Source: an uncultured Kiloniellaceae bacterium
GTDB taxonomy: Bacteria > Pseudomonadota > Alphaproteobacteria > Kiloniellales > Kiloniellaceae
Reading direction: 5' to 3'
Length of the DNA stretch: 64,000 nt
Assembly (NCBI GenBank): GCA_947493695.1
Contig: CANLSF010000005.1
Location: 62,001-126,000 of the forward strand
The notes below the pieces were generated by a model, which was not told where the DNA came from, searched no databases, and saw only the letters and a list, made by a program, of their open reading frames with translations. Below, piece after piece: positions 36,125 to 63,179 of this stretch. The first letter of the stretch is position 1; each line of letters starts with the position of its first letter. Made by a program: the position numbers and the translations under genes.

Positions 36125-36379
36125 ATGCTTTATTTAACGCGGAAAATCGGCGAATCCGTGATCATTAACGACAATATTGAAGTTACCGTCGTTGATATCC
36201 GTGGCAAGTCGATCAAGCTCGGGTTTACATTCCCGGAAGATGCCACTGTTCTCCGACGCGAGATTTATGAGCGGATTCAGGAAGAGAACCGCGCCGCGGC
36301 AGCGGGCAGCGAAGCCCTTGCCTTATCGATCGCCGGGGTCGAGAAAGACGACGCGCCCGGCGGAGACGGCAACACCTGA
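36125..36379 (+). CDS. csrA: CsrA carbon-storage regulator / translational repressor
   Basis: An 84-residue RNA-binding protein with the full CsrA core MLYLTRKIGESVIINDNIEVTV and the C-terminal strand containing IKLGFTFPEDATVLRREIYERI. The R-rich conserved residues of the RNA-binding surface (R6, and RRE near 44) are present. A 25-residue polar tail extends beyond the core. CsrA dimers bind GGA motifs in mRNA leaders and block translation; in FliW-containing bacteria the FliW protein antagonises it and couples flagellin synthesis to assembly. fliW is at 58960 in this window. Confidence 0.95.
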   Translation: MLYLTRKIGESVIINDNIEVTVVDIRGKSIKLGFTFPEDATVLRREIYERIQEENRAAAAGSEALALSIAGVEKDDAPGGDGNT

Positions 36380-58959: not shown

Positions 58960-59475
58960 ATGAATGCCTTTTCGCAAGCAGTTCACTCCGAGGAGCCAAG
59001 TATTTTGGTAGGCATGGCAAATTCTTCGTCCATGACCGGTGACGCCGACCTCGTCACTGTCGAATCACGCTTCGGCGTATTCGAATTTGACCGAAAACTC
59101 TGTATCACGATGCCCAAAGGTCTTTTGGGCTTCAGCAACTATAGAGATTTCGGAGTCACGGCGATTCCAAACGAAAAGCTTGCACCGCTCCTGCTGCTGC
59201 AATCAATCGAGGCAGCTGAGCTGACCTTTGTCGTTCGCCCGTTGGATACGACGACAGGTCTGATTGAAGAGCAGGACATTGCGTCAGCATTCGAAGCACA
59301 GTCAATCGACCGAAAATCCGGTGTTGCATTGTTGCTCACAACCTTCCACCGCACGTCCGAGGGGCTTCAGCAGTCCGTAAATCTGCGTGCGCCCCTGCTG
59401 ATTGATTCTGATTCCCGTCAAGCCTGGCAACACATCTTCCGCAACGATCGTTACGACGTTCGCCACATGCTCTGA
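58960..59475 (+). CDS. fliW: Flagellar assembly factor FliW
   Basis: 171 residues with the FliW core: VESRFGVFEFDRKLCITMPKGLLGFSNYRDFGV, APLLLLQSIEAAELTFVVRPL and SVNLRAPLLIDSDSRQAWQ. FliW binds free flagellin; when flagellin is secreted FliW is released and blocks CsrA, allowing translation of its targets. The N-terminal 25 residues before VTVESRFG are extra, and internal ATGs (58978 onward, at MANSS and MTGDAD) may be the true start. It closes the flgI-flgL transcript, with csrA at 36125. Confidence 0.92.
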   Translation: MNAFSQAVHSEEPSILVGMANSSSMTGDADLVTVESRFGVFEFDRKLCITMPKGLLGFSNYRDFGVTAIPNEKLAPLLLLQSIEAAELTFVVRPLDTTTGLIEEQDIASAFEAQSIDRKSGVALLLTTFHRTSEGLQQSVNLRAPLLIDSDSRQAWQHIFRNDRYDVRHML

Positions 59476-59637: not shown

Positions 59638-60075
59638 TCAGGCAGAGAGCCCGATGCTGCCCCCGGCTTCCTGGATAGCGTCAGTTACCGAGACACTGCT
59701 GCTCGGATTTGTGGCGAGTTCATGCCAGCTATTACGCACATTATTCAGGCTGCGAATAACCTCATCGCACATATCGACTGAATTCGAAGAGTTGATCTGC
59801 TGGAACCGCGCGAACATAGTATCGTAAAACTGGCTAAGCATGGGAGAGACATCGCCGCCCTTGTCGAAATCCAGATTTGCCTGGAGCCCCAGCAGAATCT
59901 GAGAAGCCTTCTTCGTGGCATTAAATCTGTCCTCGATACGATCTTCATCAATGGCCAGCTTGGCAGCGGTAATTGATCGGATCATGCCATCATAGAGCAT
60001 AACGACTGCCTGCAAAGGCGACACGGCATTTGAAGCCGCAGCGTAGGCAGACCTTGCCTGCGAATGATAGCTCAT
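59638..60075 (-). CDS. fliS: Flagellar export chaperone FliS
   Basis: 145 residues of the four-helix FliS fold: VSPLQAVVMLYDGMIRSITAAKLAID (flagellin-binding face) and RFNATKKASQILLGLQANLDFDKGGDVSPMLSQFYDTMFARFQQINSSNS (in parts). FliS binds flagellin and prevents premature assembly. It follows fliD after 23 bases on the minus strand. Flagellin itself is not in the window. Confidence 0.94.
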   Translation of the reverse strand: MSYHSQARSAYAAASNAVSPLQAVVMLYDGMIRSITAAKLAIDEDRIEDRFNATKKASQILLGLQANLDFDKGGDVSPMLSQFYDTMFARFQQINSSNSVDMCDEVIRSLNNVRNSWHELATNPSSSVSVTDAIQEAGGSIGLSA

Positions 60076-60098: not shown

Positions 60099-61829
60099 TT
60101 AACGATCTTGCTGGATAAAGGCTTTCAGCTGATTCGTCTGGTTCTCAGCGAACGCAACCGCCTGCTCCATCTTGGAAAACTTATCCATCAGGAATGCACG
60201 ATACGTGATCATACGGGTTTCGATTTTCGCAATCTCCGCCGTGTAATCCTCTTTCTGAGCGCCGAGATTGCTCATATCCTCTGCGATAATTCCGCCGTTG
60301 GGCTTACCGTAGTTGTCTGCCGTCTGATAGATTTTTTCAGCGAAGCCCAGACTGGTCGAGATCTGGATTGTCTCGCCACCTGACGAAGCTGCACCGGAAT
60401 ATGCGAGCGTCATGCCTTCAAAGGCCGTTCCCTCCATACCGACAAGACGCGAGCCGTCGATTTCGAAAACAGCTCCATGGCCGGTAACGCTGACACCGGT
60501 CGGAACACCTGATGCGTCGGTACCCGCGATCACCAGTTCGAAGTCACCAACAGAGAGAGCGTTGCTTCTCGTGATAACCGCGACATTGGCGGAATCTGCA
60601 TTGAAACCGAACTCAAACAGATCGCGCACTTCACCCAGGTTGCTCACCAACTGAGCATCGAAGACAGCACTATCGATAGTCAGGTAGTTGTTGGAATCGA
60701 GCTCGATACCGATGTCGCGAAGGGTAGAGAGCGCGTCTGCAGCGAGATTGTCGGTAAAGCCGGAGATATCCGAACCAAGCGCGCCATCGAGACTTCGGAG
60801 TGTGTTGTCACCAAACAAAACCGAATCTGCCGAGACTTCACCGTCGGTTGAAACTTGTTGCTGAGAGAGAGAAAACGCTCTCACTTCGTTGTAAGCGGCC
60901 ACAAAGTCGGTGATACGCTGACTAACTGCGGAAAGGTCCTGGTCGATCTCAACCTGGATAGTGGTGCCCGGCTCAGCCTTATAGATATCAATGGTCAATC
61001 CTGTGATTGCATCACCGATTTCATTTGAATCCCTGGTGATTGGATCCGGGATTCCATCAATCACAACCATCGCAGGTTGCGGTGTCTCCAGGACATTCGT
61101 GTAGGTCGCACCATTATCCGCCGATATCCCCAAGGTATTGAGCAAGGCGTTGCCACCTGCTGCGGACATGGTGATTGTTTTGTTTGTTTCTTCCGCCGTT
61201 AAGACAATTCGAAAATCCCCTTCGGCAATCTTCAGCGAGGAAGCTCGGACACCCGTTGTGTCAGATTGCGAGTTGATGGCCGCAACAAGTCCATCGAGGG
61301 TCATATCTGCGCCAACGGTGATACCAACTGTATCGCCGCCGTCCAGGCCGATTGTCAGTGTATCTGCGACACCAAGACCCGTGGTGTTGTCTGCGATTGT
61401 CCCGCCCGTGATCTTGTGTGCCGTGGCGATCTGCTGAATTTCAAATTCGTAAATACCAGCGACAGCATCGTTTGACGCGGTGACACCCATCAGATCCGTA
61501 GCAGGAGAAGGCGTACCGGCGAGCGCACTGGTGGTCAGGAAAGCAGATTTCTGCTCAAACACATTTGCGAGTGCGCCATTCAAGCCTGGCGGGTTGCGCA
61601 GGCCATCGGCTGCAACTCTCAAGTTTTCGACGAGGGCTTGCAGGTTGGCGTATGCCGCCGACTTGATGTCGCTTTCTTCAATCCGCTGATTGAGACGCAC
61701 GATTGGGAAGCTCTTGGCCTGGACCAAAGCATCGACGACTCCAGCCGTATCAAGACCGGAGAACGAACCGCTCAGAACCGGCCTGCCGTTGGATAGTGAT
61801 AGTGTGCCTTGGGTGCCTGCGAGTGCCAT
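60099..61829 (-). CDS. fliD: Filament cap protein FliD (hook-associated protein 2)
   Basis: A 576-residue protein with the FliD N-terminal domain, SGSFSGLDTAGVVDALVQAKSFPIVRLNQRIEESDIKSAAYANLQALVENLRVAADGL in parts. Central features are VTASNDAVAGIYEFEIQQIATAHKI and a Gly/Thr-rich repetitive beta region. The C-terminal coiled segment (IAKIETRMITYRAFLMDKFSKMEQAVAFAENQTNQLKAFIQQ) closes the cap. It polymerises flagellin at the tip. FliD is preceded by flaG and followed by fliS. Confidence 0.94.
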   Translation of the reverse strand: MALAGTQGTLSLSNGRPVLSGSFSGLDTAGVVDALVQAKSFPIVRLNQRIEESDIKSAAYANLQALVENLRVAADGLRNPPGLNGALANVFEQKSAFLTTSALAGTPSPATDLMGVTASNDAVAGIYEFEIQQIATAHKITGGTIADNTTGLGVADTLTIGLDGGDTVGITVGADMTLDGLVAAINSQSDTTGVRASSLKIAEGDFRIVLTAEETNKTITMSAAGGNALLNTLGISADNGATYTNVLETPQPAMVVIDGIPDPITRDSNEIGDAITGLTIDIYKAEPGTTIQVEIDQDLSAVSQRITDFVAAYNEVRAFSLSQQQVSTDGEVSADSVLFGDNTLRSLDGALGSDISGFTDNLAADALSTLRDIGIELDSNNYLTIDSAVFDAQLVSNLGEVRDLFEFGFNADSANVAVITRSNALSVGDFELVIAGTDASGVPTGVSVTGHGAVFEIDGSRLVGMEGTAFEGMTLAYSGAASSGGETIQISTSLGFAEKIYQTADNYGKPNGGIIAEDMSNLGAQKEDYTAEIAKIETRMITYRAFLMDKFSKMEQAVAFAENQTNQLKAFIQQDR

Positions 61830-61896
61830 TGCCTTACTCCTTCTACGGCCTAACTATCCCTCGAAATTCCTAAAATTCGTTAAACTTCCGAAGATT

Positions 61897-62271
61897 CTAA
61901 GCTTTTGTCTCAACAACGTGATTTATCGCCGGTTGTGAAGAAGATGTGGGATAGGTCCGAAGCATATTTTCTGTGGGAAACTCAAGGATCACGTCGCCTC
62001 GCTTTTGATCGAAAATCTGCACCACCAGGCGTCCGGACTCGGAGTCACGGTACGTCGCGAGGCCCGATACTTTCGAGACAATCGGCGCAACCTGCTGCGA
62101 CGCGGGCTGCTTGGCAGTTGTGTCAACAGCAGCGGCAGCACGCGCCTCCATCCCACCTTCCGAGCGCGAAGGCGCAGGAACGGTAGCCTGTGGTTTCGGG
62201 GCTGCCGCCGGCGCAACAGACGCGGAAGCAGTACTCGTTTTACCCGTAGGGTTAATTGAGGTGTCGACCAT
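61897..62271 (-). CDS. flaG: FlaG-family flagellar protein
   Basis: A 124-residue protein with a low-complexity Ala/Pro/Ser-rich N-terminal half and a C-terminal FlaG domain: VSGLATYRDSESGRLVVQIFDQKRGDVILEFPTENMLRTYP. The LVVQI-x-D-x2-x-G-x-V-I-x-E-F/I-P-x-E pattern is diagnostic. FlaG affects filament length in other bacteria. It lies between the 60-residue ORF and fliD on the minus strand, so it probably shares their transcript. Confidence 0.87.
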   Translation of the reverse strand: MVDTSINPTGKTSTASASVAPAAAPKPQATVPAPSRSEGGMEARAAAAVDTTAKQPASQQVAPIVSKVSGLATYRDSESGRLVVQIFDQKRGDVILEFPTENMLRTYPTSSSQPAINHVVETKA

Positions 62272-62347
62272 TTTTCACGACATCCTTCACTGGGTTAATA
62301 AATCGGCAGGAGGCAAGTTCATTCTGCTGAACCACCTCCCAAACCAT

Positions 62348-62530
62348 CTATTGAAGAATTCGCATGAATAACTGCGGCATCCGGTTGGCCTGGGACAAAT
62401 CCGAGGCAGAAACCCGCACGGGGTGCGCACCGTTGGCAGATGTACCAACGTGAGATGAAGCCGTAGCGGCAGTATTATTCAGAAAGCGTCCGGACGTACC
62501 GGCGGCGATAGGTGATGCAACTACAGGCAT
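62348..62530 (-). CDS. Small protein of the flaG-fliD-fliS operon, function unknown
   Basis: A 60-residue frame with AGAAGG eight bases before its ATG. The protein is rich in Ala/Ser/Asn (SGRFLNNTAATASSHVG) and ends in a basic amphipathic segment (LSQANRMPQLFMRILQ). No domain is recognised; resemblance to a flagellin N-terminus is too weak to claim. Its reality is supported by the ribosome-binding site, a sigma-54 type promoter 113-140 bases upstream and the downstream flaG-fliD-fliS genes on the same strand. Confidence 0.6.
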   Translation of the reverse strand: MPVVASPIAAGTSGRFLNNTAATASSHVGTSANGAHPVRVSASDLSQANRMPQLFMRILQ

Positions 62531-62537
62531 GCTAAAA

Positions 62538-62544
62538 TCCTTCT
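62538..62544 (-). promoter_or_regulatory. Ribosome-binding site with a GGA motif, second CsrA-type site
   Basis: On the minus strand AGAAGGA ends seven bases before the ATG at 62530. It is the only Shine-Dalgarno candidate for the 60-residue ORF and itself contains GGA, the CsrA recognition core. Confidence 0.55.
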
Positions 62545-62559
62545 ACTTGAAGCTAGATA

Positions 62560-62578
62560 CCCTTCCATCCTGGAAAGG
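62560..62578 (-). promoter_or_regulatory. Leader hairpin with GGA in its loop, candidate CsrA site
   Basis: In the transcript, CCUUUCC and GGAAGGG form a 7-bp stem (one G-U pair) around the loop AGGAU. GGA in a hairpin loop near the ribosome-binding site is the preferred CsrA target, and the second GGA is in the Shine-Dalgarno about 30 bases downstream. Binding of one CsrA dimer across both would block translation. Confidence 0.5.
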
Positions 62579-62584
62579 CCCTAA

Positions 62585-62609
62585 TGAGATCACCTACTTG
62601 GCGATCTCA
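62585..62609 (-). other. Second hairpin in the 60-residue ORF leader
   Basis: TGAGATC and GATCTCA pair (7 bp), continuing after one mismatch with CC/GG around a five-base loop. It is in the predicted leader, upstream of the GGA hairpin. There is no T-run, so it is not a terminator. Confidence 0.4.
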
Positions 62610-62653
62610 GCGCCATCAGTTCAAATTCAAACTTTTGACACCAGGTTAGCCGT

Positions 62654-62669
62654 CGCAAATTCGATGCCA
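62654..62669 (-). promoter_or_regulatory. Sigma-54 type promoter of the 60-residue ORF/flaG operon
   Basis: On the minus strand TGGCAT-CGAAT-TTGCG differs from TGGCAC-N5-TTGCA at two peripheral positions and keeps the 12-base GG-to-GC spacing. Transcription would begin near 62643, giving a 113-base leader. It is the third such element beside flagellar genes in this window. Confidence 0.65.
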
Positions 62670-63179
62670 AATTTTGCCCTGTGTCGGAAAAAATTTTTCG
62701 TATGTATTTCAACGTTTTAAACGTACGCGTATTTGATGTGGGTAAAAATTGCCGGGTGCAGTCAGGAATATTTTGCCTACTTACGGGGAAAACCGGCAGT
62801 TTTTGCCGTGCACATCCAAGCTCACCGTCGTAAATACCAAATCAATGGAAATAATAAAAGCACGTAAAAATCAAACACATAGAATATTTTTATTTTAAAT
62901 TTTATATAAATAAATAACAAATTATTTTTATAATCGGAAATTAATGATTTTTTGATTTTTTATTCAGCGCAACGCATATTTTTGACAAAAATCGAAGTCT
63001 TTTCGAACTCATTGCTTCACAAATTTACACCCTCACACCCAGCCAACGATTCCGTGAGCGAAAATAGCCCCGCTCATCACAGCTATGTGTCCGCCACGTG
63101 CGTTGATCCTTGCTATGAATGTCGCCAAATCTGCACCACAAGTTATAATCGATTACCGCCCAACCTACTGGAGGATTAC
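62670..63179. other. AT-rich intergenic region
   Basis: Between the sigma-54 promoter and the YHS gene. Positions about 62870-62950 are almost all A and T (runs such as TTTTTATTTTAAATTTTATA). TTTTGCC occurs at 62672, 62771 and 62801, with AATTGCC at 62748. ACGTTTTAAACGT at 62712-62724 is a perfect 13-bp palindrome, and CGGCA/TGCCG flank 62794-62808. No gene is supported; the frame from 62952 is only an extension of the YHS gene. Confidence 0.5.

Follow-up and report, generated by a model that had tools for sequence, protein, structure and literature searches.

Control of flagellin in alphaproteobacteria is exemplified by FlbT/FlaF of Caulobacter, in which a protein acts on the flagellin 5' UTR, and FlbT is the usual candidate for such control in this class. 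Control of flagellin by CsrA and FliW is also known. The text of PMC4894983, which names FlbT/FlaF control of flagellin in Caulobacter, describes flaG as a CsrA target in C. jejuni and presents flaA_mini, an engineered RNA of approximately 250 nt that consists of the leader, 17 codons and a terminator. In E. coli, CsrA is described as controlling iraD via a short upstream ORF (excerpt of PMC5574718). An excerpt of PMC7652899 gives RUACARGGAUGU as the SELEX consensus of CsrA and 10-63 nt as the spacing over which CsrA can bridge two sites.

Here we describe a Kiloniellaceae flagellin leader that has, at one locus, outlived its flagellin ahead of the cap operon, which is new; searches of the open-licence literature brought up no paper describing a leader retained once its flagellin was lost, or describing the Kiloniellaceae leader. 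The locus lies in a 64,000-nt stretch of DNA from an uncultured Kiloniellaceae bacterium, which is referred to as the window. Its features are as follows.

62655..62670, minus strand: sigma-54-type promoter element TTGGCAT-N5-TTGC, from the sequence
62586..62608, minus strand: leader hairpin 1, 9 bp, loop AAGTA, from folding and the alignment of 34 leaders
62560..62578, minus strand: leader hairpin 2, CCTTTCC-AGGAT-GGAAGGG, 7 bp, candidate upstream CsrA site, from the alignment
62540..62552, minus strand: leader hairpin 3, CTTC-AAGTA-GAAG, which touches the Shine-Dalgarno, from the alignment
62538..62544, minus strand: Shine-Dalgarno AGAAGGA, candidate second CsrA site (GTAGAAGGATTT), from the alignment and consensus score
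62348..62530, minus strand: 60-codon flagellin remnant, about 40 N-terminal and about 20 C-terminal codons with about 218 central codons missing, from alignment with full flagellins
62309..62340, minus strand: intercistronic hairpin (-15.0 kcal/mol) that has no strong T run, from folding
62280..62291, minus strand: flaG Shine-Dalgarno region AGTGAAGGATGT, candidate third CsrA site, 9 of 12 positions of the CsrA consensus
61897..62271, minus strand: flaG, Pfam FlaG at 1.9e-5
60099..61829, minus strand: fliD, Pfam FliD_C at 5e-39
59638..60075, minus strand: fliS, Pfam FliS at 3e-27
58960..59475, plus strand: fliW, candidate CsrA antagonist, Pfam FliW at E 3e-17
36125..36379, plus strand: csrA, 84 aa with a C-terminal extension, Leu4 and Arg44 in place

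A first-pass annotation of this DNA had already located the hairpin with the AGGAU loop (62560-62578), the Shine-Dalgarno AGAAGGA with its GGA (62538-62544), and csrA (36125) and fliW (58960) in the same window, all of which we found at those places. It had also reported the promoter, which is present, with a range (62654-62669) that was one base off, and was silent on hairpin 1, hairpin 3 and the flagellin origin of the 60-codon ORF. The promoter element TTGGCAT-N5-TTGC is presumably of the sigma-54 type, judging from its resemblance to the consensus, and its GG and GC are preserved in all three species that carry the 60-codon ORF (G000, G002 and G003). The AGAAGGA stands 7 nt ahead of the ATG at 62530 on the minus strand. 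The 181-nt leader region folds with a z-score of -2.39, and 4 of 200 shuffles were equally good. Hairpins 1 (62586-62608) and 3 (62540-62552) share the pentaloop AAGTA; in Kiloniella, the loop of hairpin 1 is AAGAA, or AGGAA in one strain.

When the window leader was used as a query against its own genome, four further copies turned up on the same contig, at 76-77% identity; they precede four full flagellin genes whose products start with MPVVATNTAAN. Two further flagellins there, starting with MPTVT, are without the leader motif; these two genes (L006:15980-18300, minus strand) have another, unrelated leader with the Shine-Dalgarno AAGGAGATG. A cobalamin riboswitch (121.6 bits; L006:6111-6331, minus strand) lies near the flagellin cluster. 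We collected 46 distinct upstream regions of such flagellin starts from the loci at hand and aligned 34 of them, the 12 in which the motif was missing by eye being dropped (6 MPTVT-type flagellins and 6 from Nitrospirillum or Azospirillum).

Over the 34 leaders, two-sided changes were observed in 14 of 20 base pairs, compared with a shuffle mean of 9.2 (14 was reached by 1 of 500 shuffles), and they affect 8 of the 9 pairs of hairpin 1 and 6 of the 7 pairs of hairpin 2. Pairing was retained in 91.7% of cells, while the shuffles averaged 81.3% and none of 500 was as high; the shuffles ignore relatedness, and the safer control, in which pair partners were slid, cut pairing to 35-59%. Hairpin 2, for which the first-pass annotation had suggested a search for covariation in related genomes, thus covaries, as does hairpin 1. 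Hairpin 3, including its AAGTA loop, is invariant in all 34 leaders, and hence there is no variation in which covariation could appear. Loss of the hairpin or of the GGA motifs in relatives that keep the gene order, which the same annotation had named as counter-evidence, was looked for within the genus and not seen. AGAAGGA is identical in 34 of 34 leaders, and the loop of hairpin 2 contains AGGA in 27; the other seven have AAGAA (3), ATGAA (2), GCGAT (1) or AGGCA (1). One flagellin leader of the window genome (L006:14455-14560, minus strand) has ATGAA in place of AGGA in this loop, and its paralogues in relatives have AAGAA. The possibility that the leader belongs to a known RNA family was rejected, as Rfam gave no match to it at gathering score in 7 loci and no match at E up to 10 in 62200-62760.

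A covariance model built from the 34 leaders located at least 51 leader places in at least 17 of 23 Kiloniellaceae genomes; the model scored only the best first-look candidates (150 per genome in the family), so that places may be missed. Forty-seven of the 51 places found precede flagellin starts (41 complete genes and 6 cut by a contig or locus end), and the remaining four precede the 60-codon ORF in three cases and a 13-codon ORF in one. The leaders of the remnants scored 86.7, 84.4 and 83.1 bits, level with those of working flagellin genes. The order and class searches scored fewer first-look candidates per genome, with stricter filters. Among the best candidates scored, 38 other genomes of the order gave no match, and the only match outside the family among those scored in a class sample of 289 genomes reached 31 bits, compared with at least 41.7 in the family. 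This 31-bit match, which precedes an unrelated gene read as a PLP-dependent enzyme, was taken as chance. As judged from these searches, convincing matches were found in the family Kiloniellaceae only, and by sequence comparison the leader is the flagellin leader of the family, not peculiar to one small operon. The earlier description of it as the leader of a small flagellar operon gives way in its scope to a family-wide flagellin leader; flaG-fliD-fliS do lie downstream.

The 60-codon ORF aligns with the first 39-41 and the last approximately 20 codons of full flagellins. The genus members compared were Denitrobaculum tricleocarpae (G003), an uncultured Kiloniellaceae bacterium (G002) and Pelagibius sp. 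Alg239-R121 (G001), and in the last of these a complete 278-aa flagellin occupies the position of the ORF. Among the 19 fliD loci listed, a complete flagellin is present in 9, the 60-codon ORF in 3, the flagellin is lost in 1, and a contig end cuts 6. From the alignment, we conclude that the ORF derives from a flagellin gene whose central part, about 218 codons, is missing; at the window locus, this remnant stands where a flagellin would be expected behind the leader. All three species keep it open and at the same length, and its 183 nt contain no indel. A second lineage may have followed the same course: in G019, an uncultured member of the Rhodospirillales from the same family, a 44.5-bit leader (L075:4212-4308) precedes the 13-codon ORF, which is about 275 nt ahead of flaG, the flagellin is lost, and a fragment just upstream reads as a decayed flagellin. 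This is one genome, and selection is not to be inferred from that case alone.

The equal length and open frame of the remnant in three species, together with its perfect Shine-Dalgarno and start, are what a functional 60-residue mini-flagellin or leader peptide would predict. The open frame was rejected as proof of selection, as a stop-free frame arose without selection with a probability of 0.28-0.31 in simulation. Between G000, G002 and G003, dN/dS of the remnant was 0.94, 1.09 and 1.03 (intervals 0.42-2.15, 0.55-2.45 and 0.36-3.80), compared with 0.04-0.10 for fliD and 0.08-0.16 for flaG in the same species pairs. Changes in the remnant are spread evenly over the codon positions (16, 20 and 15 of 61), unlike those in fliD (90, 41 and 350 of 575). 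Thus, no purifying selection on the 60-residue peptide was seen, given the flat codon-position spectrum and dN/dS values with wide intervals, and Pfam gave no match for the ORF. On these grounds a functional peptide is unsupported, and we consider it very improbable.

The remnant has nonetheless diverged little. Among the three species, 51 of its 177 sites are variable, whereas fliD varies at 173 of 251 fourfold sites (p 1.6e-16), and the leader is the least variable of all, at 10 of 89 sites (p 0.001 vs the ORF). The flat codon positions and the low variation together fit constraint on the RNA rather than on a peptide, and from these comparisons the remnant and leader look kept as RNA, not as protein. 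Part of the low divergence of the remnant could stem from something common to flagellin genes, as the two ends of full flagellin genes are also poor in variable sites (19 of 123 and 8 of 60).

A plainer account is that the remnant is a relic, a flagellin truncated recently, whose leader has yet to decay. Its dN/dS of about 1 and the not improbable persistence of an open frame by chance are consistent with this account, and a recent exchange of the short stretch between species may give a similar pattern and so mimic conservation. However, the truncation is common to species between which synonymous changes in fliD have almost saturated (dS of about 2), and over that divergence the leader and remnant have changed as little as stated above, without an indel. 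Moreover, the leader persists while the non-coding DNA upstream is barely alignable among the three species. We therefore regard a plain relic as rather unlikely.

Compared with shuffled columns, the consensus fold of the remnant is unusually stable, with a z-score of -4.69 (0 of 200) and, in a repeat, of -5.15. None of 39 control windows from neighbouring genes reached the latter value (minimum -2.59), nor did any of 14 flagellin windows (minimum -2.84). Single-sequence folds gave modest z-scores of -1.64, -2.33 and -2.39. Three further signals were set aside: the two-sided changes in the ORF (3) were within controls (mean 2.4; 17 of 39 reach 3), 4 of 39 controls had paired columns of equally low variation, and a long-range pairing that would join the Shine-Dalgarno to the end of the ORF, at 0.97-0.99 in G000 and G003, was 0.11 in G002 and is not claimed.

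This fold, and the conservation of the remnant as nucleotides and not as protein, might suit a natural CsrA decoy, in which a transcript of approximately 350 nt (leader, remnant and intercistronic hairpin) would bind CsrA and so free other flagellar mRNAs. In C. jejuni, the flaA leader is described as titrating CsrA off flaG, and flaA_mini as relieving repression (excerpt of PMC4894983); the near 1:1 ratio of CsrA dimer to hag transcript given for B. subtilis in an excerpt of PMC6529632 also keeps such titration possible. What weakens the decoy, however, is that the window genome has four intact flagellin genes, each preceded by this leader, so that an extra copy may add little. It would also carry two or three candidate sites only: those conserved in the three species are one loop and one or two Shine-Dalgarno sequences, and the large array of GGA hairpin loops within a single non-coding RNA that marks a CsrB/RsmZ-type sponge was not found. 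The support from structure is limited in turn, with two-sided changes and paired-column conservation within controls and single-sequence folds modest. Finally, the remnant is followed by a weaker hairpin than the full flagellin of G001, where the counterpart has -26.2 kcal/mol. The hairpin of the window is absent from the list of a terminator scan, and its consensus fold was no better than shuffled columns (z -0.44), on which grounds we rejected it as a terminator. Overall, a decoy seems to us unlikely, if less so than a relic.

With regard to the protein that would bind the leader, CsrA was found in 22 of 23 Kiloniellaceae genomes and FliW also in 22 of 23, while FlbT was found in 0 of 23 in a search whose control matched in Caulobacter. 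This distribution makes a CsrA/FliW target the best reading, and FlbT control was rejected for the family. In 18 other genomes of the order, FlbT was found in 9 and FliW in 5; the two occur together in 1 of the 41 genomes searched and are thus nearly mutually exclusive in the order. The window CsrA can be aligned with CsrA/RsmE chains of solved structure, and Leu4 and Arg44, residues with a role in CsrA, are both present; the window FliW had no PDB sequence match at 0.001.

A GGA within a Shine-Dalgarno is by itself expected. The stretch around that of the remnant, GTAGAAGGATTT, scores 10 out of 12 against the SELEX consensus, and the best score among 57 other window ORFs of at least 120 aa was 9, reached by two, one of them flaG. 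The flaG stretch is identical in the three remnant species, compared with AAAGGAGG in the relative with a full flagellin. The Shine-Dalgarno region of fliD, GTAGAAGGAG (61837-61846), is also similar to a CsrA site. The two GGAs of the leader are 27 nt apart, inside the range quoted above from PMC7652899. The first-pass annotation had proposed a two-site CsrA-type leader with FliW as antagonist; the conservation of structure, loop and Shine-Dalgarno and the presence of CsrA and FliW support this proposal, with sites that are candidates predicted from sequence. The CsrA reading is well supported, by sequence evidence only.

Some features might instead suggest that a protein other than CsrA binds the leader. 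The loops of hairpins 1 and 3, which are of the AAGTA type, contain no GGA, hairpin 3 and its loop are unchanged throughout the 34 leaders, and in B. subtilis FliW itself is described as also binding the hag leader (excerpt of PMC6529632). Given that FlbT is missing from 23 of 23 family genomes, in which CsrA and FliW are near universal, we consider another binder highly improbable.

We slightly favour the reading that this Kiloniellaceae flagellin leader, a CsrA/FliW target, keeps flaG-fliD-fliS under flagellin-type control after truncation of its flagellin. CsrA would contact the loop of hairpin 2 and the Shine-Dalgarno, blocking ribosomes from the remnant, and FliW, which unexported flagellin would hold and export of flagellin set free, would remove CsrA. 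Approximately 218 codons would have been deleted from the flagellin in the common ancestor of the three species, and the leader and stump would then have been retained as RNA ahead of flaG-fliD-fliS. In this way FlaG, the cap protein FliD and the flagellin chaperone FliS would be made in step with flagellin, in response to the same signal. The comparisons show the leader family with its structure and conservation, the deletion, and the missing constraint on the protein; CsrA binding, relief by FliW and the effect on flaG-fliD-fliS are what we infer. The annotated target of control, a 60-residue ORF with flaG, fliD and fliS, is accordingly modified, the ORF being a flagellin without its centre and control of the other three genes conditional on this scheme.

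Whether or not the stump is translated might affect the downstream genes through decay of the transcript, polarity caused by Rho or read-through at the intercistronic hairpin, possibly with help from the CsrA-like site at flaG. The remnant and flaG are separated by about 76 nt containing a hairpin, and flaG and fliD each have their own Shine-Dalgarno; translational coupling from remnant to flaG across this gap, unlike in iraD, is unlikely. There may be an internal promoter for flaG or fliD. As a more tentative extension, to which we give limited credence, a flagellin gene may here have turned into a regulatory RNA, a natural counterpart of flaA_mini that would tune CsrA and, in cis, the cap operon, and the G019 locus would perhaps be likewise.

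The interest of the locus is that a natural deletion has parted the leader from its usual gene, yet the leader has been kept. It makes testable whether FliW/CsrA control serves flagellin alone or extends to the genes for the cap and chaperone, and whether the titration of CsrA is a reason for keeping flagellin mRNAs. It also yields a family of flagellin leaders that covaries and has no Rfam entry, from alphaproteobacteria with FliW and without FlbT.

As the leaders of B. subtilis hag and C. jejuni flaA are described in excerpts of PMC4894983 and PMC7652899, the Kiloniellaceae leader resembles them in its AGGA loop, its site on the Shine-Dalgarno and a fliW nearby. It differs from them in having three hairpins instead of two and a sigma-54-type promoter, and its GGAs are spaced by 27 nt, compared with the 21 nt given there for flaA. 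Those leaders have a flagellin behind them, as is usual in Kiloniellaceae; at the window locus there is none. From Caulobacter FlbT/FlaF the system is set apart by the lack of FlbT in all 23 family genomes searched. As described for iraD, the gene of interest is preceded by a short ORF whose Shine-Dalgarno bears a CsrA-type site; in contrast to iraD, whose stop and start codons overlap, approximately 76 nt and a hairpin intervene here between remnant and flaG. Like flaA_mini as described, the locus has a flagellin promoter and leader followed by a short coding piece. However, the remnant is natural, has 60 codons that include the C-terminal end, and has been kept in three species, and whereas flaA_mini ends in a strong terminator, the window remnant is followed by flaG-fliD-fliS.
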